The position numbers and the translations under genes are program-made. Shown in pieces: positions 11,275 through 36,400 of a stretch of DNA of 64,000 bases. The stretch is from Rhodoflexus caldus (GTDB lineage: Bacteria; Bacteroidota; Bacteroidia; Cytophagales; Thermoflexibacteraceae). The notes below the pieces were generated by a model. That model saw only the letters and a list, made by a program, of their open reading frames with translations. It was not told the DNA's origin and made no database searches. The stretch is taken from assembly GCF_021206925.1 (NCBI RefSeq), contig NZ_JAJPRF010000002.1, forward strand, positions 310,001 to 374,000. Reading direction: 5' to 3'. Position 1 is the first letter of the stretch, and every line of letters starts with the position of its first letter.

Positions 11275-11353
11275 CTGTACCTGCTTTGCCTTTTGTTTTT
11301 ACAGCGTGCCGAATCGTTTTTTGGGGCGCGCTTATGATATTATTGCACTTGAT

Positions 11354-22636: not shown

Positions 22637-24965
22637 GCGGTGGCGTATTTTCTCGCTCAAACTCTTCAATCAGGCAGGTTTTATCTACTATCTGATGAAT
22701 CATTTCATCCAGTTGGGTGATGCTTATGTGTAATTTGTCCATAACCTCTTTGTTGAAGGGATCATTCAGGTCGTCATAATTAAAAATACTGAGCAAGCCC
22801 ATGATATTGGCTACAGGCCTTCTGATTTCGTGCGACTGTATGTAGGCAATTTCTTTGAGTACCGCGTTTTGCTTCTCTATGTAGCTCACATACTTTTTAA
22901 GGTCTGTGATATCTGCCAGCAAAATGGTAACGCCTATTATCTGCTCTTCTTCGTAAACAGGGTTGTACTCCACACGAAACCAGCGGGAAGGTGCAAATGC
23001 TTCATGGAAAAACTCGCGTTCCATTACAAAAGACTTGCCTTGCAACACTTGCTCAAAAATCTGTTCAAAGCCGGCCAGTTCTTCCTTGGTACGGAAATAT
23101 TGCTTAAAGTTCTCTCCTGCAATTAATTCCCGCCCGTGCAGTATCTGTGCGTTGCGGGCTGCCATCTTGTTGAAAAACAGCAGATTAGCCTGCGTATCCA
23201 GAAAAAATATCACCTGTCCGGTATTGTCAAAAATGGCCTTTAACTGTTGCTGTTTGTTTTGCAGGCGATATTGCGAAGAGGCTATCTCTTCCGATTGACT
23301 CCGCAACTCCTCGTTTTGCTGTGCCAACTCCTCATTGAGTTCTTGCAGTTGTGCATTGGCTTGTCTTACTTCCTGAACCTTCTCCTCAACTTTCAAGTTC
23401 AATTCCGCATTTTGGACTTCCAACTGCGCACTCTGATTCGCAATTTGCTCAATCAGAAAATTGCGGAAATTATGTGCCTGTTGAATTTCGGAGTTGTCCC
23501 ACCGCACCGCACGATTGCGCACCGTTTCTTCCCACTTCTCAAAGGACTTGCGCGGGCTGAGGCGAAAACCGTCCTCGCCGGGCAATAGCAATACTTTTTC
23601 CGCAGGATTGCCGCCCCACGTAATCGTTTGTATGGTTTCGGGTTTAAACCATATGATGTAGCGCTTTTCGTATTGAGAAAGCCGAATGGCAAGTATACCA
23701 CTGGCAACACTCGCGTGCCTGCCTGCAATGGGGAAATGTTTTTGCAGGCTGTCCGTATAAAATATATTCTCGCCGTGATAAGTGAATAACCATTGAACGA
23801 TTTCCCGAATAACCTCTTTGGGTGGCAGCAAGCCCGTTCCCATAGAGTTATTCTCCCACCAAATAACAACGCCGGAAGCAGAGTTGAGCTTCAGCAGCAA
23901 CGAAAGATCATGCAAAAGCCCGTTAATAACGCTGCGCTCGCGGGCAATGTGCTTGATGATTTCCTTTTCGTAGGACTGCACCTGAATATGGTGGCGTTGT
24001 GCATTGACATTTTCCACCATTTCAATCTGATATGCCGCAATGCTACCGACATGCTCCAATAATAAACGGAGTTTGCTGTCAATAAATTTTTCATGATAAT
24101 GGTGGCAAGTCAGCAGCCCCCACAGCTTGTTATTGATGATAATGGAAATCACCAGCGTAGCCTTTACGCCCATATTTTGCAAATACTCCACATGGATGGG
24201 AGATACGCTCCTGAGAAATGACTTGGACAAATCCAAAGGCTCTTTTGTCTTTGGATTTATTTGCGGCACTATATCCACCGGCACATAATCTACGTCAGGA
24301 ATCATTCGCAGCACATTGGTCAAGTAAAGTTTACGTGCTTGTGCCGGTATATCGCTTGCAGGAAAATGATGCCCAAAGAAAGAATACAGCTCAGGCCTGC
24401 GCGATTCGGCTATGATTTTCCCGTTCCATTCTTCATCAAACTGGTAAACCATTACCCGGTCATAGGATGTTATCTGGCGGACATTGCGGGCAAGCACATC
24501 ACACAACTCGTTTACCTGATGGCAGGCTTTCAGGCTCTGCATCAGATGGTTGGTGGCACTGTAATAATCGGTAGATTGTAAATAAAATTTTCGGACTGTT
24601 TCGCACTCAATAATGAGCACTCCCTGCTGCCAAATATGGAGCACACTCTGGTAGCTCTTGCCGTTTTGAAACTCCAACTCAATCGGATTGATAAATATGA
24701 GTTGGTCTTTTTGCAGAGCAGTCGTAATCTGCAAAAGGGTGTAAGTTGTCAGCAAATCCGACAGCGGTTTGCCTAACGCCGCATCAGGTGTTACACCTAT
24801 ATATTCCTCCGTATTATTGCTGCACTGTGTAACAGTCAGCGTATCCACATCTACCGCCAGTAAAAACCCGAAAGGTTGAATTTTACCGGGTATATGGATA
24901 GGCTCACGGTCGCAATTAGATAAGTCTATAACAGTATCAGAAAAGGGCAATTCAGACGCTTCCAT
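22626..24965 (-). CDS. bphP: Bacteriophytochrome-like photosensor with PAS and phosphoacceptor domain but no kinase ATPase domain
   Basis: The ATG at 24965 gives 779 residues that begin like known bacteriophytochromes. Cys18 lies in SNCDREPIHIPG, the biliverdin attachment site of the family. The PAS domain (about 18-120) leads to a GAF domain (about 150-310) with PASDIP at 202-207 and CHH at 287-289, then a PHY domain with WFKPE and the tongue motif PRKSF at 471-475. A coiled coil (about 515-590) and a second PAS domain (about 595-700) follow. The C-terminus holds a HisKA-like helix pair with SHEIRRP (phosphoacceptor candidate His712) and stops at PPPTP. No HATPase_c domain is present and none is encoded beyond the stop. 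It is a red/far-red light sensor whose output must depend on a partner. An earlier ATG at 25124 would add 53 unrelated residues and is rejected. Confidence 0.88.
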   Translation of the reverse strand: MEASELPFSDTVIDLSNCDREPIHIPGKIQPFGFLLAVDVDTLTVTQCSNNTEEYIGVTPDAALGKPLSDLLTTYTLLQITTALQKDQLIFINPIELEFQNGKSYQSVLHIWQQGVLIIECETVRKFYLQSTDYYSATNHLMQSLKACHQVNELCDVLARNVRQITSYDRVMVYQFDEEWNGKIIAESRRPELYSFFGHHFPASDIPAQARKLYLTNVLRMIPDVDYVPVDIVPQINPKTKEPLDLSKSFLRSVSPIHVEYLQNMGVKATLVISIIINNKLWGLLTCHHYHEKFIDSKLRLLLEHVGSIAAYQIEMVENVNAQRHHIQVQSYEKEIIKHIARERSVINGLLHDLSLLLKLNSASGVVIWWENNSMGTGLLPPKEVIREIVQWLFTYHGENIFYTDSLQKHFPIAGRHASVASGILAIRLSQYEKRYIIWFKPETIQTITWGGNPAEKVLLLPGEDGFRLSPRKSFEKWEETVRNRAVRWDNSEIQQAHNFRNFLIEQIANQSAQLEVQNAELNLKVEEKVQEVRQANAQLQELNEELAQQNEELRSQSEEIASSQYRLQNKQQQLKAIFDNTGQVIFFLDTQANLLFFNKMAARNAQILHGRELIAGENFKQYFRTKEELAGFEQIFEQVLQGKSFVMEREFFHEAFAPSRWFRVEYNPVYEEEQIIGVTILLADITDLKKYVSYIEKQNAVLKEIAYIQSHEIRRPVANIMGLLSIFNYDDLNDPFNKEVMDKLHISITQLDEMIHQIVDKTCLIEEFERENTPPPTP

Positions 24966-25076
24966 CAAAAAAAATTGACAATTATTAGTCTTGTGTCGAT
25001 ACAATAAACTTTTGTAGCAATATAACAAATGACAAGCAAAAAATTCATCTTTCATTCCGCTTTTTGTTTTCTTTTG

Positions 25077-25084
25077 TATATTTG
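25077..25084 (+). promoter_or_regulatory. -7 box (TATATTTG) of the doxX-ohrR operon
   Basis: TATATTTG is an exact match to the Bacteroidota TAnnTTTG element, 30 bases before the DoxX-like ATG at 25115. No convincing -33 box is visible at the usual distance. Confidence 0.5.
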
Positions 25085-25098
25085 TATCGCTTACGATA
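25085..25098 (+). promoter_or_regulatory. Inverted repeat TATCG-CTTA-CGATA, candidate OhrR operator
   Basis: The 5-base arms TATCG and CGATA are separated by CTTA and directly abut the -7 box, so they would cover the transcription start. A further ATCG lies just downstream and an isolated CGATA lies at 24997-25001 on the phytochrome side. The second gene of the operon encodes a MarR/OhrR repressor, a class that often represses its own operon from such a site. Binding is inferred. Confidence 0.4.
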
Positions 25099-25114
25099 TA
25101 ATCGCAAAAGACAA

Positions 25115-25546
25115 ATGAAAACAACTCTTATGCAAACTGTATTTCGGGTACTGTTAGGTATATTAATGGTATTGCCCGGCGTTGGTCATCTTACTTTCCA
25201 ACGGCAGGAGTTTTTGGCGCAGGTTCCTCGCTGGCTGCCCAATGACCCTGCTTTTATGGATTTTGTTGTGCTTGCCTCCGGCGTAGTTGAAATTGCGCTT
25301 GGGCTGGCTATGATTTTCTGGGAGCGCCGCAAAGTTCAGGTGGGCATTGCGCTGGCTATTTTCTACGTACTGATTTTCCCGGGTAATATTTCGCAGTACA
25401 CCAACGGCATCAGTGCATTTGGGCTGGATACGGATACCAAGCGATTGGTGCGCTTGTTCTTCCAACCCGTCCTGATTCTGTGGGCTTTGTGGAGTACGGG
25501 GGCGCTGCATTATCTGATAAGCAAGCGGCACATGTCAAAAAGGTGA
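25115..25546 (+). CDS. DoxX-like membrane protein
   Basis: A 143-residue protein with four predicted membrane helices (starting TVFRVLLGILMVLPGVGHL, FVVLASGVVEIALGLAMIF, VGIALAIFYVLIF, and LVRLFFQPVLILWALW). This is the size and layout of the DoxX/DoxD-like family of inner-membrane proteins. Members are often linked to thiol or oxidative stress, but a biochemical activity is not settled for this subgroup. The ATG at 25115 is chosen over one at 25064, because the earlier start would place the -7 box inside the gene. It is 44 bases upstream of ohrR, same strand, so the two are probably one operon under peroxide or electrophile control. Confidence 0.75.
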   Translation: MKTTLMQTVFRVLLGILMVLPGVGHLTFQRQEFLAQVPRWLPNDPAFMDFVVLASGVVEIALGLAMIFWERRKVQVGIALAIFYVLIFPGNISQYTNGISAFGLDTDTKRLVRLFFQPVLILWALWSTGALHYLISKRHMSKR

Positions 25547-26236: not shown

Positions 26237-26644
26237 TTACTTCTGCTGTCTGCGCCAAGTGTTGGTATAGCTGCCGTCTAAGGCTTGCTCTACGAACTCG
26301 GTTTCTGTGAGTTTGATGATTTTGTTTTTGCGGGGTTCGCCGCCAAGTACTTCGTTGGTGTAGGTGATAATATCGCCTTCAATGCTGATTTTATCGGGTC
26401 CGTATTCTTCGCCCACGTTAGACATAGCCTCGTTACCTGTAATGATAAGAGAAGCCCACGTTTCGCTGTCGTTGGGGTCGCCGGTTTCCCAACTGCCTTG
26501 CAGCATGTCTAAGTAAGATTTGGCAGGTGCTGCTTCGGTGGCGGCAGTAGCGGTTTCGGTGCTTTCTCCTTGCTTAGCACCGCCGCAGGCTGCGGCAAAA
26601 AACATGACGGCAACAGTTGTTGCCCAAAGGGTGATTTTTTTCAT
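26237..26644 (-). CDS. Small lipoprotein
   Basis: A 135-residue lipoprotein. The signal peptide (MKKITLWATTVAVMFFAAAC) ends in a lipobox with a Cys followed by GGAKQG and a Ser/Thr/Ala-rich linker. The mature part (LDMLQGSWETGD to NTWRRQQK) looks like a small beta-rich domain, possibly lipocalin-like given the LQGSWE start and closing WRR, but no family is recognised with confidence. The ATG at 26644 is preferred over one at 26668. It lies 25 bases downstream of the next lipoprotein gene on the same strand and is probably its operon partner. Confidence 0.65.
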   Translation of the reverse strand: MKKITLWATTVAVMFFAAACGGAKQGESTETATAATEAAPAKSYLDMLQGSWETGDPNDSETWASLIITGNEAMSNVGEEYGPDKISIEGDIITYTNEVLGGEPRKNKIIKLTETEFVEQALDGSYTNTWRRQQK

Positions 26645-26669
26645 GCGTGAATAAAAGTTTGGTTGCAAA

Positions 26670-27332
26670 CTACTTTACTTCAACAAATTTTTTCTGCGAA
26701 AAGTCAAAGCGGTATCGCTTTTTGCTGGTTGCTTCATCTTTTGCGTTGCCGTCATCATCTACTTTGGAAACTGTTTCCGTAATGGTGATAACGTTGTCCG
26801 AAGCAACAGCGGCATCGGTTGTGTAGGTGTTCATACCGTCTGAGGTACCGCCGCCTACCATAAACTCGCCGACAACTTCTTTGTTGTTTTTATCAAAAAC
26901 AAGCAAATGTGTAAACTGCTGCCCGCGCAAGCCTAAGATACTGCCCAATACGAAAGTAAAATCATTGACAACTGCGTAGCCGTGTATGTGTGCCTCGTTC
27001 ACTGCACCCTCTTCGGTAGTGGGTTGGATGAAGGTTTCGGGCGTTTCACGGTAAGGTGTTTCAATGCCCTGATAGTCGCCGTAATTGCTCAACAGGGTTT
27101 TCAGGTCGGCGACCTTTTTGGCTTTGGCACGCACTTCCGCCACAAAAGCGGTGTATTGCTTGCCTTCGTCAGAGGTTTCGCTTGTTGCTTCCGATTCCTG
27201 AACTACGGCATCAGCGGTTGAGGCAACTGTTTCTGTGTCCATTGTTTCAGCAGCAGTTTCCGCTTGCTTTTTGCCGCAGGCTGTCGTCAGTAGTAAGGCA
27301 GCCACGGCAAGGGTGAGAATGGATTGTTTCAT
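26670..27332 (-). CDS. Lipoprotein of unknown function
   Basis: A 220-residue protein with a lipoprotein signal peptide (MKQSILTLAVAALLLTTAC, then GKKQAE). An acidic Thr/Glu/Ala-rich linker leads to a mature domain of about 160 residues (KQYTAFVAEVRAKAKKV to QKKFVEVK). No catalytic motif is visible and I do not recognise the family. The GKKQ after the lipid-anchored Cys is shared with the lipoprotein at 28002-28841. The ATG at 27332 gives the signal peptide directly at the N-terminus; the longer frame starting at 27434 adds an unrelated sequence. It belongs to the minus-strand lipoprotein island. Confidence 0.65.
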   Translation of the reverse strand: MKQSILTLAVAALLLTTACGKKQAETAAETMDTETVASTADAVVQESEATSETSDEGKQYTAFVAEVRAKAKKVADLKTLLSNYGDYQGIETPYRETPETFIQPTTEEGAVNEAHIHGYAVVNDFTFVLGSILGLRGQQFTHLLVFDKNNKEVVGEFMVGGGTSDGMNTYTTDAAVASDNVITITETVSKVDDDGNAKDEATSKKRYRFDFSQKKFVEVK

Positions 27333-27351
27333 ATGAGTAAAAAGATTTGGA

Positions 27352-27972
27352 TTATGCTTCAACGGTTTTTTGTTGGTTTTTGGTTGGGAAAAGTTTGCAG
27401 GGCACTTGCAGAAATTTAGCCATTTCTGCTGCAATGTAATTCAAACTGAACTCTTCGCCTGTGGCGTACATGTTAGAGATGAGTTTGCGCGCCTTTCCTT
27501 GTTTATCTATCACATATAGGGTGAAATAGGTGCTTACTACATTCCCCATTTCCGACCGGGCATGTATCTGCTTATCAGTTACCATCAATCGCTCAATCTC
27601 GGAAGTGGCGATTTTCAGCCCGCCCGGCATGGGCAGCGGACCAAAACGAAGGCGCAATTCGGTAGGCGTAAGTGTAAAAACCGACCGATTGACAAAGCCG
27701 TACAGTAGCCAGATGAAGTCTCTTGAACTGAGAACGCTTGCTACAATCAACGCGGTTTTTACGCTGTTGTATGCTTCTGCAACCTCAGATGAAAAATAGA
27801 ATGCAACTACGATAAAGAGATAAATCGCAGCGATACGCATCATTAACACCTGATGGTAGGCGCAGAAAAAGTTAAGGCGGATAGACAATTCAGAACCTCG
27901 CCGCTCTACTTTTAGCTTGCCTTGTGCCAGCAATTTGTTTACATCGGTTGCAATAAAGCGATTATAAGCCAT
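27352..27972 (-). CDS. Membrane protein of unknown function
   Basis: A 206-residue protein without a signal peptide. Hydrophobic segments near residues 43-62 (MMRIAAIYLFIVVAFYF) and 72-95 suggest a two-helix hairpin. Soluble parts lie on either side, and the C-terminal half (FTLTPTELRLRFGPLP to YIAAEMAKFL) looks like a beta-rich, pleckstrin-like fold of the kind found in bacterial membrane-associated domains. No function can be assigned. It sits among lipoprotein genes, with 19 bases to the next gene downstream and 29 bases to the one upstream, so it is probably cotranscribed with them. Confidence 0.6.
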   Translation of the reverse strand: MAYNRFIATDVNKLLAQGKLKVERRGSELSIRLNFFCAYHQVLMMRIAAIYLFIVVAFYFSSEVAEAYNSVKTALIVASVLSSRDFIWLLYGFVNRSVFTLTPTELRLRFGPLPMPGGLKIATSEIERLMVTDKQIHARSEMGNVVSTYFTLYVIDKQGKARKLISNMYATGEEFSLNYIAAEMAKFLQVPCKLFPTKNQQKTVEA

Positions 27973-28001
27973 TGTGTGATGTCGGTATGGGGGGATGAAT
28001 A

Positions 28002-28841
28002 TTATTTCTGATGCATCAGCGTCATTATCTCTTCCCCTGTCGGCGCATCAAAATGCAGTTCCAAGCCGCTCCCGTAAACCATTTTTACTTTGATAGAAAA
28101 ATCTTCAAAACCTTCGGTAGCGCAGCGGATGCTGTTATCTTTTTGTACTTCGCAGGTGAAAACTGCCTTTGTGCCGCCTTCGGTGAGGGTGAAAATAACG
28201 CGATTGCCTTGCTGTGCGGTGCTTACCTTAGTTGTGGCAGAACCCTGAAAAGTTTTAGGGTCACGGATTTGCCATTTCATGCCTGCAAAGGCTTCGGCAA
28301 GATGCTGCGACAAAGGTTGGCTTTCCGTAATCGGAACGACAGAGGCATCGGCAAGAAAAACAGCCACTTGCTGCGGCACATCGCCTACAAATCGGTCAAT
28401 ATTTTTAGCGCCGTCATTTTCCTTGTGTATAATCAGTTTCACGGGTTGGTTTTGCAGAGTAACTTCTACGGTTTGTTCTGCTTCCTGATATTCAAAAAAT
28501 GCCGACGGCTTTTGCGAGCGGATAGCGGCTTTTTGCCAATTGCCTTTGGCATCGCTTACGTACACGGAAGTAGCTTCGCCTTTTTGTGTGTCCCAATAAA
28601 TGTAATAGCCTGTGGCGGTGTTCAAATCATAATACAAGCCGCTGAAATTGATGGAAGAAGGTACTTTTTCGGGCTGTCGGTCGTCGCCGCCTGTTTCTCC
28701 TTCAAATGCAGATTCCGTGTCGGGTACGGCGTTTTCAGTAGCGGTACTTTCGCCTGTTTGGCTGTCTTGCTTTTTACCGCATGCAACTGCCAACATCAGC
28801 AGCGATGCGGCAAACAGCATGGAAAGAAATTTGTTTTTCAT
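28002..28841 (-). CDS. Lipoprotein, member of the island's paralog family
   Basis: A 279-residue lipoprotein (signal peptide to LMLAVAC, then GKKQDSQ) with a long acidic linker and a mature domain from INFSGLYYD to TLMHQK. The mature part shares an ordered set of features with the protein at 28873-29703: FSG(L/V)Y near the start, a central KLIIH-type strand, then TLTEGGTKAVFTCEV and IRCATEG near the end. The two cysteines, ten residues apart, can form a disulfide. No known family is recognised. A long antisense frame covers the gene but is a shadow. Confidence 0.65.
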   Translation of the reverse strand: MKNKFLSMLFAASLLMLAVACGKKQDSQTGESTATENAVPDTESAFEGETGGDDRQPEKVPSSINFSGLYYDLNTATGYYIYWDTQKGEATSVYVSDAKGNWQKAAIRSQKPSAFFEYQEAEQTVEVTLQNQPVKLIIHKENDGAKNIDRFVGDVPQQVAVFLADASVVPITESQPLSQHLAEAFAGMKWQIRDPKTFQGSATTKVSTAQQGNRVIFTLTEGGTKAVFTCEVQKDNSIRCATEGFEDFSIKVKMVYGSGLELHFDAPTGEEIMTLMHQK

Positions 28842-28872
28842 GGGTTGAAAATTTGATAATGATTGTTACGAT

Positions 28873-29703
28873 TTAGAAAATAGGGCTGTCTTGCACCAGC
28901 GTAAACAAACGTTGCCCTGCGTTGGTGTCAAATGCAATGCTCCACGTTGCCAGATTGTACGGCATAACGGTGGGTATCATGCTGAAATTAGTATCGCCTT
29001 CGGGCTTGCAACTCATGGTAAAGTTGTTATAGACTTCGCAGTGATAAGTGGTCTTTTTGCTGCCTTCGGTAATGGTAAAATCCAAGGTTACTAATTCCAT
29101 CGCTGTTTTTTTGACGCTTACTTTGGCAGTGGCGGGTTTGCCTGTGGCATCGTCCAACAATACCCATCGGCGATTAGCCAAAGCCTCTGCCCAATCGTAA
29201 TGCGTAAAAACATCACCTTTGCCAATATCGGACTTCGCATCGGCAATTTGCATGAGCGGATATTGCAGTTTCTCGCCTTGCCATTGCACGTAGAGCAGCG
29301 GCAAATCCTGCTCGGATTGCTTAATCAGCGTGAGTCGGTGCGTTTTGCCTTGCAGGCGAACGGTCAGGCTGTGTTCGGCAACGGAATACTCCGCCATATC
29401 GTGTGAGGGGGACTCTTTCACGATGTCGCAGGTTTGGTAACTGCCGCCGTTCAACGAATAGCGAACCGCTGTCGGTTTGCCGTTGCGCCACGTAACGTGG
29501 AAAACATCAAAGCCTTCGCCGCGCCCGGCATATACGCCGCTGAAATCAAAGGCAGTTGCCTCCGTGTTGTGGTGAACCGCTTCGGCAGCTTCCGTATCGG
29601 GGAAATAGTCATTGCTTTGTGCGGTTTCTTCGGTAGCGGCGGTTTTGCCTTTGCAGTTCCACAGCAAGAGGGCAAGCAGGAAAATAGTTAATTGATGTTT
29701 CAT
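28873..29703 (-). CDS. Lipoprotein, member of the island's paralog family
   Basis: A 276-residue lipoprotein with signal peptide MKHQLTIFLLALLLWNC and lipid-anchored Cys in WNCKGK. The mature domain begins FDFSGVYAGRG and contains DFTITEGSKKTTYHCEV with a second Cys in MSCKPEGD, the same two-cysteine arrangement as its neighbour at 28002-28841. The signal peptide region is nearly identical in DNA to that of the next gene upstream (29719-30525), although the mature domains differ. That gene's stop lies 15 bases away, so the pair is probably one transcript. Confidence 0.65.
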   Translation of the reverse strand: MKHQLTIFLLALLLWNCKGKTAATEETAQSNDYFPDTEAAEAVHHNTEATAFDFSGVYAGRGEGFDVFHVTWRNGKPTAVRYSLNGGSYQTCDIVKESPSHDMAEYSVAEHSLTVRLQGKTHRLTLIKQSEQDLPLLYVQWQGEKLQYPLMQIADAKSDIGKGDVFTHYDWAEALANRRWVLLDDATGKPATAKVSVKKTAMELVTLDFTITEGSKKTTYHCEVYNNFTMSCKPEGDTNFSMIPTVMPYNLATWSIAFDTNAGQRLFTLVQDSPIF

Positions 29704-29718
29704 TTTTGCATCATTTTA

Positions 29719-30525
29719 CTACTGAAAATACGGCTTGCCGTTGGCAGGGAAAAATACGATGCGCTCGTTACATTCGGGACCGTCCCAGAGGTAATGCTTT
29801 TCGTTATAGGCTTTCATGTAAGCCATTTTGGCATCATTGCCGACAGGTGCAAGCGGAACAGTCAGGTGCGGGCAGTAAGTCATGCTATATGAGCCGTCTT
29901 CATTTTGTCCAAGCAACTCATCTAACGATTTTTTGCCTATCAGCACAAAGGCAGGTTGATTATAGCCGGGCAGCGATTTTTCTAACAAAATATCGTTCAG
30001 GACAAAGTGCTCGTCAAGCATCACGCTTTCGCCTTCTTGGGGGACTAAATCCAACACGGTCAGGCGGCTTTCGTTGGCATAGCCGTAGCCTTCTATTATC
30101 AGAAAAGCATTTTTTGTCCCTTTGTGCTGCAAGCGAAGCAGATAAGGACATTCCTTGCCGCCAAAAACATTGCTCACAATTACATCGCTTTGCGTAAGGC
30201 GCGTGAACCGCTCGGGTTCGCTGATTTTATCGTAACCTTCCGCATAGGTGTGTGCCATGCTTCCCGCGTTGGAATAGTCAATTCGGATTTGTGTGAAAAC
30301 GCCCGCATCCTGTGGCTGACCGTAGAGCACGATGGTTTCGGGTTTGCCGTCGCCGTCCATGTCGTCCAGCGGATAAGTACCGATGAGGTTTTCAAGGCTT
30401 GAATAGTCGGCTGTTGCAACGCTTTCTTCGGCAGTTGTTGTGCCGTCAGACTCGTCGGTGCTTGTTTTGCCCTTGCAGTTCCACAGCAAAAGGGCGAATA
30501 AGAAAAGGGTTAGTTTATTTTTCAT
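29719..30525 (-). CDS. Lipoprotein with an FG-GAP-like calcium-binding motif
   Basis: A 268-residue lipoprotein with signal peptide MKNKLTLFLFALLLWNC and a short acidic linker. The mature domain opens with YPLDDMDGDGKPETIVLYG, an Asp-rich loop of the kind that binds calcium in FG-GAP/VCBS-like repeats, followed by several beta strands (TQIRIDYSNAGS, YLLRLQHKGTKNAFLII). Only one such loop is evident, so a full beta-propeller is not supported. It is not obviously homologous to the adjacent lipoproteins beyond the shared signal peptide, which suggests a swapped export signal. Function unknown. Confidence 0.6.
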   Translation of the reverse strand: MKNKLTLFLFALLLWNCKGKTSTDESDGTTTAEESVATADYSSLENLIGTYPLDDMDGDGKPETIVLYGQPQDAGVFTQIRIDYSNAGSMAHTYAEGYDKISEPERFTRLTQSDVIVSNVFGGKECPYLLRLQHKGTKNAFLIIEGYGYANESRLTVLDLVPQEGESVMLDEHFVLNDILLEKSLPGYNQPAFVLIGKKSLDELLGQNEDGSYSMTYCPHLTVPLAPVGNDAKMAYMKAYNEKHYLWDGPECNERIVFFPANGKPYFQ

Positions 30526-30581
30526 GGTGGAAGTGGTTACAAATAAAATTTCGGTTGAGTGTTTCGTACTTCTAAATTTTC

Positions 30582-30672
30582 TGCCGCTAAGTTTTACGCC
30601 AAGCGCGCTAAGTGTTCTTCCAACGATATTTCTTTGTGTACTTTGCGATTGAACCTTTGCGAACGTTGCGTT
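30582..30672. repeat. Degenerate CGCNAAG-type inverted repeat
   Basis: The left part carries CGCTAAG, CGCCAAG and CGCTAAG; the right part carries CTTTGTG, CTTTGCG and CTTTGCG, close to the reverse complements. This pattern resembles the mobile CGCAAAG-repeat elements scattered in many environmental bacterial genomes. It sits between two lipoprotein genes. Confidence 0.45.
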
Positions 30673-30693
30673 AAATAATGCGTTAGTTAATGC

Positions 30694-31437
30694 TTACTTA
30701 GGCTCTGCCAGCGTACCTAGTGCGTTGCCTTTTTTGTCAAACAGAGAAAGCATCCAGCGGTTGTCTTTCAGCAGGCTGAGTTTGCCGATGAACTCTTTTT
30801 GGGTGTACATCACATTGTCGTTACCCATTAGCACGGTCAAATCTTTGTCAAAAGCGCAGTAGAAAACGGCGCGTTGTTCGCCTTCACCAATTGCCAGCTC
30901 AAACATGATAGGGTCTTCCATCACACCGAAAGCTATCGGAATATTATCCGCATAAACATCGTGGGTGGGGTCGTAGAACTGCATACGCACACTTTGCATG
31001 GCAGTTGCCATCGTAGCGGTTGCAGGGTCTTCGTTGTCAAAAGACATGTTGTCTTCCTGTGCCAAACGAACCAGCGTGCGTTGGTTGTTTTGGCGCAAGG
31101 TGTTGAATTGCAGCGTGCATTTGTCTTTGCCTGTATGCGTCAGCGTCATTTCGTAGACTACATTGGGGGCTTTTTCGTGGTAGAGGCGAAGTGCTTTTTG
31201 CGGCATCTTATTAGCAGTCGGCTTGTCTTCCTGACGCATGATTTCGTAGCGCAAGTATTTGCCGCCTTTGGGTGCATGATAAACCGCGCTTATCATTCCA
31301 TCTTTGGCATCGCATTGCACCATAATAACCTCTTGATTATCAGGCAATACATACAAGCCGCCAAATAAAAACGGCTGTTGGGCAAACAGCGGGCTGCTCA
31401 ACAGCAACACAGCAAAAAAAGTGTACAGCTTTTTCAT
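30694..31437 (-). CDS. Secreted protein, likely distant paralog of the island's lipoproteins
   Basis: A 247-residue protein with a classical signal peptide (MKKLYTFFAVLLLSSPLFAQ) and no lipobox, so it is periplasmic or secreted. The mature part begins FLFGGLYVLPD and near its end has GEGEQRAVFYCAFDKD, which lines up with the TEG...CEV segment of the lipoproteins at 28002 and 28873; the second cysteine is missing. Homology is weak and should be treated as a suggestion. Function unknown. The gene is separated from its upstream neighbour by a terminator at 31456-31488 and from the downstream one by the 30582-30672 repeat, so it may be transcribed alone. Confidence 0.6.
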   Translation of the reverse strand: MKKLYTFFAVLLLSSPLFAQQPFLFGGLYVLPDNQEVIMVQCDAKDGMISAVYHAPKGGKYLRYEIMRQEDKPTANKMPQKALRLYHEKAPNVVYEMTLTHTGKDKCTLQFNTLRQNNQRTLVRLAQEDNMSFDNEDPATATMATAMQSVRMQFYDPTHDVYADNIPIAFGVMEDPIMFELAIGEGEQRAVFYCAFDKDLTVLMGNDNVMYTQKEFIGKLSLLKDNRWMLSLFDKKGNALGTLAEPK

Positions 31438-31455
31438 GGATATTTTTTTGAAAAA

Positions 31456-31488
31456 GCACAGGCTGCAATAATTTTTGCCAACCTGTGC
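31456..31488 (-). terminator. Terminator of the 31523-32464 gene
   Basis: On the minus strand GCACAGG and CCTGTGC form a perfect 7-base stem around a 19-base loop, with an inner TTGGCAAA/TTATTGCA-like pairing, followed by CTTTTTC. It lies directly after the gene's stop. Confidence 0.5.
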
Positions 31489-31522
31489 CGGAAAGTGTAT
31501 TTTATAGAAAGGGTTGAGTTGT

Positions 31523-32464
31523 TTATTTAATCCACCACCATTTACGCAGTTTGGTTGCCATGTCGGTCAGCGCAGCAGGCTCATCTTTCGTACCGATAAC
31601 GGGCACAATTTCATCTATCATGCTATCGGCAGGGGCGGTCAGGTAGTTTAAATACATTTCGTTACCTATAAAAGGTGTGATTGGGCGCACATAATGACCA
31701 AATATGTAAATACCGGTGTTAGGGTCTCTTCCGTAGAAGCCAATGGCACTGCCTTCCATATAATCCGGGGTTTCATATTGTGTCAGGCGCTGACCTTTGC
31801 AGGCACCTGTTTCTATGCCTTCACGCACGCCTTCCACGCGACATTCGCAATAGTACAGTTCCTGAAGAGTAGTGGTATAAGTATAAACTGTAAAAGTTTT
31901 GCCATCAGGTGCAGGAACTATTTTCACACGACTTTTGGGATAGGAACCCGCCATCATCAAAGGAATTGCCATGTGCTGGTTTTCGTCTAACAGAAACTCA
32001 CCTTTCCTCTTTTCCGCTACCAGATACAGATTCATAAACTCATCTAAGGGATAAGCAAAATGTGTGTCGGTGAGCTTAATAAACGGTGTGGGCGTGCCGT
32101 CAAAAATCACACTTTTGCCGTCGGCTGCTACCTGCCAAGTGCCTTGCTGAACGTCGGTATTCTGTATGCGCAGGTTGTAAGAGCCATTGCGGTTAAATTG
32201 CATCTGTATCTGTTGGAAAACGAACAAAGCCTTAAACGCTTCGGTCTTTTTTCTTTGCAGTTCCTCGCGTTGTGCGCGTGATAATTGCTGTGCTTCTGCT
32301 GCCTTGAACTTCTCTACCAGTGCTACTTCCATAGATTTCAGGTCGGCGACCCAGTTGTCTGAGGTCAGCCAAGCTGCCATTTGCTGCGGTGTTTGCGCCT
32401 GTGCGATAGCTGCCAGCCATAACAGGGCAAACACAAAGGTTGATAAAAATGGTACTTTTTTCAT
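31523..32464 (-). CDS. Exported protein of unknown function
   Basis: Starting at the ATG at 32464 the protein has 313 residues with a signal peptide (MKKVPFLSTFVFALLWLAAIAQAQ). Next comes a helical, charged region with AEAQQLSRAQREELQRKK, then a lipocalin-like beta segment (QMQFNRNGSYNLRI, QQGTWQVAADGKSVIF). The C-terminal half has several cysteines (YYCECRVEG and GACKGQ) reminiscent of the paired cysteines in the nearby lipoproteins. No family is recognised. A 51-residue His-rich extension in the same frame is probably untranslated, because the signal peptide would then be internal. Confidence 0.6.
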   Translation of the reverse strand: MKKVPFLSTFVFALLWLAAIAQAQTPQQMAAWLTSDNWVADLKSMEVALVEKFKAAEAQQLSRAQREELQRKKTEAFKALFVFQQIQMQFNRNGSYNLRIQNTDVQQGTWQVAADGKSVIFDGTPTPFIKLTDTHFAYPLDEFMNLYLVAEKRKGEFLLDENQHMAIPLMMAGSYPKSRVKIVPAPDGKTFTVYTYTTTLQELYYCECRVEGVREGIETGACKGQRLTQYETPDYMEGSAIGFYGRDPNTGIYIFGHYVRPITPFIGNEMYLNYLTAPADSMIDEIVPVIGTKDEPAALTDMATKLRKWWWIK

Positions 32465-32662
32465 TGGGTTAATCATTTGTTTTGATTGATGATACGAAAG
32501 TAGGGGCTTACCGCGACTCTTTTTCGGCAAATGAGGATGCGCAACGGCTGTATGAGAATCCGTCAGGTTTGTGTGAGAATTTGATTTTTCGGCTTTTCCA
32601 TGCGTTGCCTCAGTCATATCCCGCGTTCCCTCAACGGTGCTTTAAGCCTGTCGGGTGCTGTA

Positions 32663-32670
32663 TAGTTTTG
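32663..32670 (+). promoter_or_regulatory. -7 box (TAGTTTTG)
   Basis: An exact TAnnTTTG match 28 bases before the ATG at 32699, with TTTA 18 bases upstream as a weak -33 element. Confidence 0.45.
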
Positions 32671-32698
32671 CTTCATCAACCAATCATTTGTAAGCACA

Positions 32699-33757
32699 AT
32701 GAAAAGTTTCATTAAACAAGTTTTAGTAATCGCTATGGTAGGCGCATGGGCTGTCAATCCCGCCGCTGCGCAATTGAGCAAACTCAAAGAAAAAGTAAAA
32801 GGCAAGTCGGGAGAGGCATTGGTAAGCAGTGTACCGGCAGGTGTTGACAAGTTAGACAAGTTCCTAATTAAGGCAACTGAAACACAAGAGAATACACCGC
32901 GCCCCATGCTCGGATTTACGGGTTCAACGTTTTTGAGCAAGCAGGTAGTCTATTTCAATGTACTTGACAGAAAAGATATGGCTGCCAAGTTGGGCGTACC
33001 ATTCTTTGGCACGGTTTACCGCAGTTTTCAGCTGAGCAACGACCAAGAGTGCCCCGAAGACAGCCGCGTGTTCTCGCCCGAAGAAAATACTTACATTTTC
33101 TACAAAGGCAAAAGCGACGACAAAAAGCCGGGCAAGACAATACCCAAGCGCATGGGCTATCTCGTATTTTATCCTTATGACAAGCAGATGCCTGAAGTGA
33201 TGCTGGTACTTGCTCCTGATGCAGATGCTTTGGCCAAATGGCAGGGCGAAGAGGGCAAAAAAGCCATTAAAGACCTTGAAGCCAAAATTTGGGAAGTAGC
33301 AGGCGATATGGAAAAAGAAATAGAAAAAGAATTTATCGCCAAATATGCCAAAGAAGTAGAAAGCTACCGCGACAACAACAGTTTCATGGAAAATTCCATT
33401 GAAAAGCCGGGCAAGCTGCACTCTGAGGAAGTATTGAAGCAAATCCGCGAAACGCTGCAAGGCTGGGCAAACAATGCCTTCGGGGGCAATACCGAAATGA
33501 TTGCTGTATCGTTGGTTGGCAACGACTATGTAATTTACCGCAACAACCTGACGGGCGTAGTTACCGGACGCGGCATACAAGGCAAGATGGCCTTTATAGA
33601 ACCATCCCTGAAAGAACACGGCCTGTTTATGTACTACCCCTTTGATGCGGTACAAAACCACGACGGTAAGAACTTTTCAGGCGGCTGGACAGCGGTAGGT
33701 ACGTCAAGCACAGTAAGCAGAGTTTGGAAAGAAAAAATTGCGTCATTCCAAAAGTAG
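32699..33757 (+). CDS. Exported protein of unknown function
   Basis: A 352-residue protein with a signal peptide (MKSFIKQVLVIAMVGAWAVNPAAAQ). A short Lys-rich helix follows (LSKLKEKVKGKSGE), then a domain of about 300 residues with a charged helix in the middle (DMEKEIEKEFIAKYAKEVES). No catalytic or binding motif stands out and I do not recognise the family. It is divergent from the exported protein at 31523-32464 and has its own promoter. A strong terminator separates it from the convergent regulator gene. It may belong functionally with the neighbouring secreted proteins, but that rests only on position. Confidence 0.6.
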   Translation: MKSFIKQVLVIAMVGAWAVNPAAAQLSKLKEKVKGKSGEALVSSVPAGVDKLDKFLIKATETQENTPRPMLGFTGSTFLSKQVVYFNVLDRKDMAAKLGVPFFGTVYRSFQLSNDQECPEDSRVFSPEENTYIFYKGKSDDKKPGKTIPKRMGYLVFYPYDKQMPEVMLVLAPDADALAKWQGEEGKKAIKDLEAKIWEVAGDMEKEIEKEFIAKYAKEVESYRDNNSFMENSIEKPGKLHSEEVLKQIRETLQGWANNAFGGNTEMIAVSLVGNDYVIYRNNLTGVVTGRGIQGKMAFIEPSLKEHGLFMYYPFDAVQNHDGKNFSGGWTAVGTSSTVSRVWKEKIASFQK

Positions 33758-33795: not shown

Positions 33796-33833
33796 ACAAA
33801 GCTTCGCCGCGTGGGGAAGCCTTTGTTTTTTTA
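33796..33833. terminator. Terminator between convergent genes
   Basis: ACAAAG-CTTC pairs with GAAG-C-CTTTGT (one bulged C) around a GC-rich loop, followed on the plus strand by TTTTTTT. It can end the 32699 gene on the plus strand and, by its symmetry, the LytTR gene on the minus strand. Confidence 0.65.
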
Positions 33834-34577
33834 CAACGCCTGTAAAACTTTCAGCAGCGCTTCCTTCTTGCGGATGGCCAGCGGCAGTTCGGTGCCGTCT
33901 TTGAGTACCACCGCCCCCGCGTCCGATTTTTCAATCCGTTTCAGGTAAGCAAGGTTGAATAGGTACGATTTATGACAGCGGAAGAAACCCTGATTTTCAA
34001 GCAGTTGTTCGTATTCTTTTAAAGTTTTGGCAACCATCATTTTCTGCCCGTTATTCAGAAAAAAGGTGGTGTAGTTATCCTCTGCCTGCAAGTACATAAT
34101 CTCGGCGGTTTCTATGATGTGGATTGCCTCCATGTCTTTAAGCACCAAGCGACGCGCTGCGGCATTGCCTGCTTGCAAGTACTGCATCATGACGGTAATC
34201 TGTTGTTGCAACTGCTTGCTTTGAATTGTCTCCCCTGCCCGATTGATGGCAGCCACCAACTCCTCAGGGTCAGTTGGTTTAAGCAAGTAATCTAATGCAG
34301 AGATACGAAATGCCTGCAATGCGTAGTTATCAAATGCGGTAATAAAAACCACCTGAAAATCAACACTTTGCAATTGCTGTAACAAATCAAAACCCGTTCC
34401 GTCGGGCATGTCTATGTCTAAAAGCACCAAATCGGGGCGTGTTTCCTCAATAAGTACCTTGCCTTTTTGCACATTTTTAGCCTCACCCGAAAAAACAGCT
34501 TGCGGACAAAACCTGCCGATGATGTCTTTTACAAAGTTGCGTTGTTGTTTGTCGTCGTCTATCGTTATCCAGCGCAT
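33831..34577 (-). CDS. LytTR-family response regulator
   Basis: A 248-residue two-component regulator. The receiver domain (1-120) has the acidic pocket IDDD, phosphoacceptor Asp54 in LVLLDIDMPDG, a Thr in the VVFITAFD strand and the conserved Lys in YLLKPTD. The C-terminal LytTR DNA-binding domain (about 145-245) shows IIETAEIMYLQAEDNYTTFF and FRCHKSYLFNLAYLKRIEK. Its start codon overlaps the kinase stop (TGATG), so the two are translationally coupled. Target promoters are unknown. Confidence 0.9.
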   Translation of the reverse strand: MRWITIDDDKQQRNFVKDIIGRFCPQAVFSGEAKNVQKGKVLIEETRPDLVLLDIDMPDGTGFDLLQQLQSVDFQVVFITAFDNYALQAFRISALDYLLKPTDPEELVAAINRAGETIQSKQLQQQITVMMQYLQAGNAAARRLVLKDMEAIHIIETAEIMYLQAEDNYTTFFLNNGQKMMVAKTLKEYEQLLENQGFFRCHKSYLFNLAYLKRIEKSDAGAVVLKDGTELPLAIRKKEALLKVLQAL

Positions 34578-36400
34578 CAGGTAATGTATTTGAGTAGCAT
34601 CTGCAAAGATGCTGCCGTACCTTGTTCCAAATCTCTGATGTGGAAAATTACCTTAAAGCCTGCTTGTTTTTCCAGCAGGCGGATGCGGTCTTCGGTAATG
34701 GTGGTAGCTCTGGAAATATGCTCTTTTCGGCGCAAGTGGCTTGCTGCCTGCCTGCCGATGCCGTTGTCCGTCAGTCTGATGAGCAGTTGCTCGCCCTTGG
34801 TTCGGATGTCCAAATGCAATTTGCCGCCTGTGGCAAGCCCGCGCAGCCCGTGTTCAATGGCATTTTCTACTAACGGTTGCAGCAGCATCACAGGGATTTG
34901 CACTTCGTCTGCATCTGTTTCATCGTCAATACTTACCTGATAGTCAAAGGGTTGCTCAAAACGAATACGTTGCAGGTCTATGTAGGCTTGCAGCGTTTCC
35001 AACTCTTCGGAAAGAACGGTAAATTCCTTTTCGGAACTGTCCAATACGCGGCGCATCAGGCGGGCAAAACGGGCAATGTAGCTGCTGGCAGTGAGGGTTT
35101 CCGCTCGATTGACATACTGCTGAATTGCCATGAGTGCATTGAAGAAGAAATGCGGGTTCATTTGTGCCCTGCGCCATCGCTGCTCGGTTTCCAACAATGA
35201 AGCCTGCATGGTCAGGCGGCGGTTGCGGTTGTAAATGCCGACAGCGGCCAATATCACAACGGCCAACAAAGCTCCGCTTGCCATCAGCACGTTGCGACGC
35301 TGGATTTGAAGTTCCTGTATCTGCGTTTGTTGCGAAAGTTGCGCAATTTCATTCTCTTTTTCGCTCACTTCGTAGCGGGTTTGCAGTTCGGCAATTTGCT
35401 TGCTGCGTTCGCTGTTGAATACACTGTCCGAAAGTTGTTTGTGGCGTTTGTACCATTGGTAGGCCTCCCTGAACTTTCCTGCGACAGAGTCCAACTCGGC
35501 GTAGGCCAAGTAAACCTGCGCCAGTTCTTTGGTGGCACCGATATTTTGGGCGCTCACTGCTGCGCTGTCGTAGTAATTTTTTGCCTGTTGCAGATTGCCT
35601 TGCTGTTTGTGCAAATCGCCGATGTGTTGGTAGGAATGAGTCATCAGATACGGCTCACCAATGGCTTTCTCAATTGCAAGTGCCTGCGTGTAAATATTCA
35701 ATGCCTCCTTTGTATTGCCTTGCTTTTCGTAAATGCCGCCCAAAAAGTTCAGTGAATAGGATTCTCCCTGCCTGTCGCCAAGTTCCTTTTTTAACGCCAA
35801 GGAACGTTCTATGAGTTGTTGAGCCTTGTTAAAATCGCCTGATTGCGCATACAGGTTGCCCAGATTGCCGCTGATAACGGCCATGGCGGGTTTTGCCTGC
35901 AACTTTTCAACAATTTGCAGCGCCTGTTCCATGTATTGCAGCACCAGCGGATACTGTTGCAGTTCGTGATAAACGGCAGCCACATTGTTCAGTGCCCGAG
36001 CGCGGTTGAGTTGGTCATTTGCTTTGTTGAAGTTTTCGGCAGCCTTAAACAAAAAGTCCAATGCCTCTTTGTGTTGCGAACGGTCGCAGAGGATAGTGCC
36101 CAGCCGCATGGATGCCATTGCCTGCTGACCGGCAGAAAGTTTTTGAACCGACAAACGATAGGCCTCTCGCGCTGTTTGCTCTGCGCGGCGGTAATCTCCT
36201 TTTTGCTGCTGTGCACTTGCCAATTGCACGAGCACCTCGCACCGCGCAGTGTCTGAAAGTGTGGTTTGGAGCAGTTGTGTCAGGCTATCGGCTACACCCT
36301 GCCCCAACAGCGGAGCAACCCACAAAAAACAGAGGCCAAGCAATAGCGGCATTGGTTTGGTTGCAGGGTGTTGAAAGCCGAATGGCCGAATTTGTTTCAT
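34577..36400 (-). CDS. TPR-containing LytS/YehU-type sensor histidine kinase
   Basis: A 607-residue kinase with a signal peptide-like first helix (LLLGLCFLWVAPLLGQ) and a periplasmic stretch of about seven tetratricopeptide repeats (residues about 45-350, with ALNNVAAVYHELQQY and SYSLNFLGGIYEKQGN). A coiled coil and one membrane helix (VLMASGALLAVVILAAVGIY) follow. The cytoplasmic His_kinase domain has MNPHFFFNAL with His417 as phosphoacceptor, then VMLLQPLVENAIEHGL (N-box) and LTDNGIG (G-box). This layout is common in Bacteroidota. It phosphorylates the LytTR regulator encoded immediately downstream. The sensed signal is unknown. Confidence 0.9.
   Translation of the reverse strand: MKQIRPFGFQHPATKPMPLLLGLCFLWVAPLLGQGVADSLTQLLQTTLSDTARCEVLVQLASAQQQKGDYRRAEQTAREAYRLSVQKLSAGQQAMASMRLGTILCDRSQHKEALDFLFKAAENFNKANDQLNRARALNNVAAVYHELQQYPLVLQYMEQALQIVEKLQAKPAMAVISGNLGNLYAQSGDFNKAQQLIERSLALKKELGDRQGESYSLNFLGGIYEKQGNTKEALNIYTQALAIEKAIGEPYLMTHSYQHIGDLHKQQGNLQQAKNYYDSAAVSAQNIGATKELAQVYLAYAELDSVAGKFREAYQWYKRHKQLSDSVFNSERSKQIAELQTRYEVSEKENEIAQLSQQTQIQELQIQRRNVLMASGALLAVVILAAVGIYNRNRRLTMQASLLETEQRWRRAQMNPHFFFNALMAIQQYVNRAETLTASSYIARFARLMRRVLDSSEKEFTVLSEELETLQAYIDLQRIRFEQPFDYQVSIDDETDADEVQIPVMLLQPLVENAIEHGLRGLATGGKLHLDIRTKGEQLLIRLTDNGIGRQAASHLRRKEHISRATTITEDRIRLLEKQAGFKVIFHIRDLEQGTAASLQMLLKYIT

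Follow-up and report, generated by a model that had tools for sequence, protein, structure and literature searches.

Nine genes at positions 26237-33757 of the window, that is the 64,000-nucleotide stretch of Rhodoflexus caldus DNA analysed here, may form a lineage-specific envelope locus that rests on an older core of the genes g and h and whose barrel proteins would bind a hydrophobic ligand; we put the probability of this reading at about 40%. As judged from a structure model, the d/e/g proteins may serve to transport or trap a lipophilic small molecule within the cell envelope. If this is right, they represent a so far unnamed family of exported proteins, probably of double-barrel type, and possibly illustrate how a soluble form can give way to one tethered to the membrane. 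The presumed island of paralogs is smaller than first thought, as it comprises three related genes out of nine.

Gene content and the d/e/g family

The nine genes (Table 1) encode five putative lipoproteins (a, b, d, e and f), which have a hydrophobic N-terminus with a Cys at its end, three other exported proteins (g, h and i), whose signal peptides carry no lipoprotein-type Cys, and one membrane protein. The initial annotation, whose open reading frames we found at the positions given there, had counted eight secreted or lipid-anchored proteins. Five lipoprotein-type and three exported proteins are indeed present, but there are nine genes, and c, with a transmembrane-like segment but without a signal peptide, is not secreted. 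The likely starts of a, b and h lie inside the listed frames (at 26644, 27332 and 32464, respectively). The surroundings had also been described as free of enzymes. This holds in part only, since the cluster is directly followed by genes for a LytTR regulator, a histidine kinase and a GH63-like glycosidase. Scans for promoters (12 sites versus 9.2 ± 3.0 in shuffled sequences) and terminators (17 versus 11.4 ± 3.5) were uninformative.

Table 1. Positions of the cluster genes, the signal-peptide segments of e and f, and the adjoining regulatory pair in the window.
Feature	Positions	Strand	Description	Remark
a	26237..26644	-	small putative lipoprotein, 135 aa	T. ruber f-a fusion has homologous C-terminal part
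b	26670..27332	-	putative lipoprotein, 220 aa	dN/dS 0.37, highest among seven tested
c	27352..27972	-	membrane protein, 206 aa, without signal peptide	70% identity to T. ruber; internal stop in sister MAG
d	28002..28841	-	putative lipoprotein (CGKKQ), 279 aa	d/e/g family; model shows two 8-stranded beta domains in tandem
e	28873..29703	-	putative lipoprotein (CKGKT), 276 aa	aligns with its paralog d over 269 aa at 27.5% identity
f	29719..30525	-	putative lipoprotein, 268 aa	only signal peptide in common with e
g	30694..31437	-	exported, no lipobox, 247 aa	third d/e/g member
h	31523..32464	-	exported, 313 aa	by sequence not homologous to d/e/g
i	32699..33757	+	exported, 352 aa	strand opposite to rest of cluster
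e signal-peptide segment	29641..29703	-	first 63 nt	near-copy of f segment
f signal-peptide segment	30463..30525	-	first 63 nt	near-copy of e segment
LytTR response regulator	33831..34577	-		adjoins cluster
TPR histidine kinase	34577..36400	-		adjoins cluster; related kinase adjacent in T. ruber too

Sequence comparison gives good support for d, e and g being a single protein family that is homologous in the mature region. In blastp searches of a nine-protein database, d aligned with e (27.5% identity over 269 aa, E 1.25e-17) and with g (21.9% over 178 aa, E 2.6e-5), and an outside homolog, G125_g, bridges d (E 9e-17) and g (E 3.7e-15). An unrooted tree places d and e apart, with g on the side of the single-copy homologs found in other genomes (support 97/97). 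In a ten-sequence alignment of the family, G68 and Y70 are invariant, forming a G-x-Y motif in all ten sequences; the first Cys (C230 of d) is present in nine, and the second Cys ten residues further on (C240 of d) in five of the ten, which are exactly the d and e sequences. The d protein of L013 entered alignment, tree and dN/dS calculation without its start codon. The motifs FSG(L/V)Y and xCEV noticed previously are real in d and e, and the common core that had been proposed for up to four proteins is borne out by the homology of d, e and g (28002, 28873 and 30694) but does not extend to h (31523), which is not detectably related. Likewise, the term diverging paralogs applies to d, e and g only, the other cluster proteins being unrelated by sequence in blastp.

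The initial annotation did not recognise the family, and indeed d/e/g proteins have no match above cutoff in Pfam, NCBIfam or PADLOC (in these scans, as in the nine-protein blastp, the sequence of protein a was one codon short). A BRCA-2_OB3 line for d (E 8e-5) was dismissed, as it scores 22.8 bits against a cutoff of 24, covers 49 residues and appears in one of ten family members; NCBIfam lines for the cluster proteins are far under cutoff, and many begin in the signal peptide. The view of tandem paralogs specific to a lineage was likewise confirmed: the family occurs in 3/13 genomes of Thermoflexibacteraceae and in 5/390 sampled genomes of the order.

The neighbour gene h and the locus in other genomes

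We reject h as a fourth paralog: its blastp alignment with d (E 0.56) covers residues 2-44, i.e. the signal-peptide end only, and profile-profile comparison with the d/e/g family (hhalign) yields a probability of 1.4%, or 0.1-0.7% when profiles of halves are compared. That h is an unrelated exported neighbour retained beside the family is well supported. In all five family-bearing genomes, a family member adjoins an h-type gene or lies one gene away from it, and therefore g and h look like a conserved core. As to the nature of h, its structure model is poor (pLDDT 49.8) and gave no useful result in a Foldseek search, so that h might still share a fold with d/e/g; h has no match at E ≤ 1 in Pfam, Lipocalin_4 included. 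Its profile, though, is matched by two small exported proteins, L039 (E 2.3e-7) and L041 (E 8.9e-7), which exceed the Lipocalin_4 cutoff of 22.4 bits (28.4 and 22.7 bits, respectively), and the three h orthologs scanned show sub-threshold Lipocalin_4 lines (E 0.017-0.028). By these profile comparisons, the first half of h is related, via intermediates, to small Lipocalin_4-like proteins. It differs from the small exported proteins of the Lipocalin_4 family (PF13648) by an added second part, which contains a CxC...C motif conserved in 4/4 aligned sequences.

Thermoflexibacter ruber, whose culture-collection strain DSM 9560 has d, g and h in one cluster, carries counterparts of a, b, c, d, f, g and h together, apart from the glycosidase, and other exported genes occupy that spot. 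Alternatively, the locus might represent mostly unrelated exported genes gathered at a recombination-prone spot, with a joint function limited to g and h. Such a scenario would fit the variable gene content, as, of the 13 genomes of the family, only R. caldus has i, apart from a remnant in a sister MAG, and a counterpart of e was not found in T. ruber. It would also fit the different exported genes, the rearranged gene order and the fusion of f to an a-like domain in T. ruber, and the other genes that the genus-mates G006 and G007, both without the d/e/g family, have on the cluster side of the glycosidase. However, h and a family member stay paired across two taxonomic families, and seven counterparts remain clustered in T. 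ruber at a different place, and we consider this alternative rather unlikely. Recent acquisition of foreign DNA was rejected by composition (GC 0.447-0.497 over 22-40 kb), and searches of d against plasmids and of g against phages yielded no match that would indicate carriage by either.

The sister MAG lacks most of the kinase/regulator region and of i, and its c contains a stop, yet the remaining cluster genes look constrained; either these parts can be dispensed with, or the assembly contains errors. These losses bear on the idea of an envelope-stress or housekeeping module, in which damaged lipids or misfolded proteins would be sensed or buffered by the barrels, with a signal passed on to the TPR kinase and its LytTR partner. 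The pair adjoins the cluster in the window and in T. ruber (a remnant of the kinase persists in the MAG), and the best kinase matches in G006 and G007 are weak (28% identity). Against a link between kinase and cluster, G012, which also lacks the family, has a kinase with 34% identity. In the MAG, moreover, d, e, g and h are under constraint although the locus has no intact pair, and because kinases of this type are numerous, with up to 14 matches per genome, their adjacency in two genomes may be due to chance, so that a stress module appears doubtful to us. Kinase and regulator trees conflict as to the ortholog of the T. ruber pair. R. caldus has a second kinase/LytTR pair, and its kinase shows a comparable similarity (46%). 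The second pair adjoins a gene for a secreted protein of 297 aa (G000:C18) without a Pfam match, which resembles a lipocalin by eye; its best match to the cluster proteins (E 0.057) is unconvincing.

Structure model of d and the proposed role

The AlphaFold2 model of d (mean pLDDT 73.8, pTM 0.69) shows eight strands, a helix and again eight strands, with pLDDT values of 74-93 in the blocks of the mature part, apart from three at 68. We model d as two consecutive eight-stranded beta domains in a calycin-like arrangement, with modest Z scores. Nearly all VIA-align rows span one half of the model, and no one family stands above the others: designed barrels reach Z 8.3 and 7.4, parts of a penicillin-binding-protein homologue and of a D-aminopeptidase 8.1 and 7.9, Tp0751 7.2, TbpB and HphA 6.5 each, AimA 6.3 and lipocalins 5.2-6.2, where values below about 8 may reflect merely a common arrangement. 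Foldseek returned no match with E ≤ 0.001 for the d model, and sequence searches of solved structures gave no match either. A repeat between the N- and C-terminal halves of d/e/g that would be visible in the sequence was rejected (probability 0.9%). In the C-terminal domain, seven of eight strands have one hydrophobic face (mean ≥ 1.8) and an opposite face that is negative; the N-terminal domain shows this pattern in one of eight strands and is missing a clear hydrophobic face.

Lipocalins proper carry a G-x-W motif in the first strand, whereas d, e and g have G-x-Y in its place. The barrels of TbpB, HpuA and HphA align with the N-terminal domain of d at Z 3.9-6.5, i.e. within the range of common arrangements, and show no sequence similarity to it. 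The Aeromonas protein AimA (6b7l; 87 residues aligned) consists of two tethered calycin domains, as the d model likewise comprises two consecutive small beta domains, and both proteins are exported. AimA also is without sequence homology to other calycins (PMC6219842). Differences from AimA and calycins in general are the lipoprotein signals of d and e, which also have no known host link and no sequence match among solved structures.

In the favoured reading of a ligand-binding envelope locus, each barrel would hold a small hydrophobic ligand. Protein g would be free in the periplasm. Proteins d and e, held by their lipid anchors and probably facing the periplasm from the outer membrane, would keep a ligand of this kind at the membrane, and the adjacent kinase/LytTR pair would adjust or read the system. 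The locus contains no ligand, transporter or receptor gene hinting at a substrate, and no transport receptor is encoded among the scanned neighbour genes. LolA and LolB form a carrier/acceptor pair for lipoproteins. By analogy in idea only, a soluble periplasmic g would stand against lipid-anchored relatives, d and e, within one family. Protein g could be a double-barrel carrier of a hydrophobic ligand from which d and e arose as anchored receptors with the same fold, and recombination restricted to the signal-peptide/lipobox segment (e and f) would repeatedly re-set the anchoring; such a relay seems very unlikely. A LolB1_Flavo line for e (E 0.17, residues 6-58, from the signal peptide on) is not significant.

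Export signals, selection and a shared signal-peptide segment

The initial annotation had favoured a surface system for defence or adhesion. In this scenario, the lipoproteins would be flipped outward and would diversify against partners in adhesion, defence or competition, which would agree with lipid anchors followed by long linkers that, by eye, abound in Ser, Thr and Glu, with the restriction to a lineage and with the rearrangement, fusion and loss seen at the locus. However, none of the proteins a-i has a C-terminal T9SS tail, which two giant proteins elsewhere in the window possess. Acidic export signals such as QKDDE, SDDDD and SDDFE are described for Capnocytophaga, Bacteroides and Flavobacterium (PMC5080379). 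At least two acidic residues at positions +2 to +6 are present in none of the five cluster lipoproteins, although the published motifs may not be those of this order; d has a single one at +6, and all 13 lipoproteins checked have zero or one. PADLOC reported nothing for the nine proteins beyond a weak, unconvincing line (b, residues 1-67, E 0.033), and Pfam found no adhesin domain in them. Moreover, all seven testable genes (c was left out of this count) are under purifying selection, with dN/dS values of 0.08-0.37. Purifying selection and the lack of a T9SS tail and of a published-type export signal do not favour a diversifying surface or defence system, which we regard as improbable.

Since the signal peptide of the outside homolog G125_g has no Cys, lipidation in the d/e/g family may be derived. 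Against this, the second outside homolog, G099_g, may itself be lipidated, given an LFGC within its signal peptide. The signal-peptide segments of e and f share 78-90% DNA identity, as compared to 81-83% among orthologs, and the mature parts of both proteins are unrelated. This identity on a par with orthologs suggests recombination confined to the export-signal segment and, if right, would provide a natural example of signal-peptide-only exchange between unrelated lipoprotein genes.

Gene layout and the d/e/g family

The open reading frames of the window place nine genes, a to i, in the interval 26237-33757, eight on the minus strand and i alone on the plus strand (see table). An intergenic gap of 85 nt separates h from g and one of 168 nt separates g from f; the next four gaps, down to b, measure 15-31 nt each. 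The gap between b and a is 28 nt when counted from an a start three bases too short. The same window encodes a giant secreted subtilase with cadherin-like domains (4879-11274; 2131 aa), a giant secreted protein of 3776 aa carrying laminin-G, LRR and Ig domains (11306-22636), both with a T9SS tail, and a phytochrome (PAS-GAF-PHY) protein (22626-25124), whose kinase part looks incomplete (HisKA below cutoff, ATPase domain without match at E <= 0.01).

Features of the locus and its surroundings
Feature	Position	Strand	Remarks
h	31523-32464	-	first in transcription order; signal peptide without terminal Cys
g	30694-31437	-	second; signal peptide without terminal Cys
f	29719-30525	-	third; hydrophobic N-terminus closing with Cys
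e	28873-29703	-	fourth; hydrophobic N-terminus closing with Cys
d	28002-28841	-	fifth; hydrophobic N-terminus closing with Cys
c	27352-27972	-	sixth; transmembrane-like segment, no signal peptide
b	26670-27332	-	seventh; hydrophobic N-terminus closing with Cys
a	26237-26644	-	last; hydrophobic N-terminus closing with Cys
i	32699-33757	+	signal peptide without terminal Cys
LytTR response regulator and TPR histidine kinase	33831-36400		beyond the cluster; followed by a GH63-like glycosidase
e signal-peptide segment	29641-29703		first 63 nt; near-copy of that of f
f signal-peptide segment	30463-30525		first 63 nt; near-copy of that of e

Three of these genes, d, e and g, encode one family with export signals, a member of which is kept together with h. 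In blastp, d matches e over nearly all of the mature length (27.5% identity, 269 aa, E 1.25e-17) and, more distantly, g (21.9%, 178 aa, E 2.6e-5), while direct comparison of e with g is not significant (E 0.49). All three are assigned to one family because they are linked by homologs from two other genomes of the order: E is 9e-17 against d and 4e-15 against g for G125_g, and 1e-17 against g, 4e-16 against d and 9e-10 against e for G099_g. A tree of ten proteins, unrooted and accompanied by a program warning of long branches meeting, splits d and e from g and the single-copy homologs with support of 97/97. Hence, the shared paralog core proposed in the initial annotation holds for d, e and its third candidate g, whereas for the fourth, h, blastp, profile-profile and half-versus-half profile comparisons detected no relation.

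Distribution, rearrangement and selection

A ten-sequence profile found the family in 5 of 390 genomes and 4 of 129 genera of the Cytophagales; this set and those for class and phylum are samples, searched with a coarse first pass. Carriers include the sister MAG CALHUI01 and Thermoflexibacter ruber DSM 9560. With e as query, 3 of the 13 genomes of the window's family were positive, and no member was found in the genus-mates G006 and G007. Seven of 395 genomes of the class sample match at E <= 0.01, six of them partially (best E 5.9e-5), and the single carrier among 296 genomes of the phylum sample is the window's own, whose three copies all lie in this cluster. The expectation of lineage specificity is thus borne out in these samples, full-length matches in those of the class and the phylum being confined to the own genome.

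The profile of h matches 29 of the 390 genomes and covers most of its length in six, namely the own genome, the MAG, T. ruber, G125, G041 and G099. Matches in the remaining 23 are confined to the first 170 of 302 positions; two (L039, L041) of six small proteins underlying such partial matches pass the Lipocalin_4 cutoff. A full-length h lies near a family member in all five genomes with the family: it adjoins one in three of them (own genome, MAG and T. ruber), is its divergent neighbour in G125 and is separated from it by one YARHG lipoprotein in G099. G041 has h, and the d/e/g family was not found there.

T. ruber has g, h, d, an f-a fusion, c and b, located away from the glycosidase, and the d/e/g profile search did not find e. 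The counterparts of f (26.9% over 249 aa, E 1e-13) and a (35.5% over 76 aa, E 2e-5) are fused into one 349-aa lipoprotein (L014:10886-11935). Identity to the window is uneven, with 70% for c and d, 45% for g and 29% for h; b of T. ruber was recognised via the MAG copy alone (24%, E 3.7e-7), the window's b giving no match at E <= 0.05.

In the MAG, all the minus-strand genes of the cluster are intact except c, which has an internal stop. A stretch of about 3 kb is missing, and with it the regulator and the greater part of both i and the kinase; what is left are 56 residues of i and kinase residues 11-196 with a stop, and the beginning of i runs into antisense kinase DNA (L013:5838-6200). This gap reflects either a deletion or an assembly fault. 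The own genome carries a second TPR-kinase/LytTR pair (L093:9565-13118; kinase 46% identical), followed by a secreted 297-aa protein without Pfam match.

The seven tested cluster genes are under purifying selection. Their dN/dS values between window and MAG are lowest for h (0.08) and g (0.09), followed by a (0.10), e (0.11), d (0.12) and f (0.19), and highest for b (0.37), as compared to 0.05 for the glycosidase used as yardstick, and bootstrap intervals stay below 1 in 8/8 genes (highest upper end 0.59, for b).

Predicted fold of d and proposed role

An AlphaFold2 model of d from eight input sequences (mean pLDDT 73.8, pTM 0.69; N-terminal linker low) places eight strands on either side of a helix, which would make d a double barrel; the mature part scores 74-93 per ten-residue block, bar three blocks at 68. 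The model of h was too poor for use (pLDDT 49.8). Foldseek returned no PDB match for d at E <= 0.001. In VIA-align, small beta-barrels rank high, nearly always covering one half only: Z is 8.3 and 7.4 for designed barrels, 8.1 for part of a penicillin-binding-protein homologue, 7.9 for part of a D-aminopeptidase, 7.2 for Tp0751, 6.5 for TbpB and HphA, 6.3 for AimA and 5.2-6.2 for lipocalins, where values below 8 may, by the program's own warning, reflect a common arrangement only. As judged by strand alternation, strands are hydrophobic on one side in 7/8 cases in the C-terminal and in 1/8 in the N-terminal domain. C230 and C240 of d lie on adjacent modelled strands and could form a disulfide over the hairpin if residue 232 faces 238.

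We infer that the barrels would bind a ligand and that family members would reside in the envelope, soluble and tethered forms acting as a pair; the adjacent kinase pair would regulate the cluster. The tethered form may be derived, because the signal peptide of G125_g has no Cys; that of G099_g, with LFGC inside, is ambiguous. A surface system for defence or adhesion, as initially suggested, gained no support, although none of the points against it is decisive. T9SS tails were not found in the cluster proteins, a test that works because tails were detected in two other window proteins; the lipoproteins lack export signals of the type given in PMC5080379, which stem from other organisms and may not be those of this order; PADLOC gave no convincing match among the cluster proteins; and dN/dS is low. 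The cluster is absent from the titles among the matches listed in a literature search of limited extent, which covered Thermoflexibacter, lipoprotein export signals, signal-peptide gene conversion, bacterial lipocalins and AimA (PMC6219842).

Closely similar signal-peptide segments of e and f

The mature parts of e and f show no homology in blastp. Their first 63 nt are identical at 51/63 positions in the window and at 54/60 in the MAG; across genomes, e of the window matches f of the MAG at 57/63 and f of the window matches e of the MAG at 47/60, as compared to 50/60 (e) and 51/63 (f) for the true orthologs. Past nt 63, e versus f drops to 44-51%, whereas orthologs hold 82-83%. The next-best pair among eight exported genes of the window reaches 35 matches in 63 nt (ungapped). 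The repeat stops at the start codons, and the upstream DNA shows no similarity evident by eye. The simplest reading of these patterns is that the segment was copied between e and f, possibly repeatedly. Constraint on the signal peptide alone would be a weaker explanation, which retains some plausibility because the segment comprises only some 60 nt. The corresponding segment of the T. ruber f-a fusion is less similar to those of e and f. The signal peptides of b and d, whose DNA is not strikingly alike (56/104 in the window), agree at 44% over 36 aa as protein.
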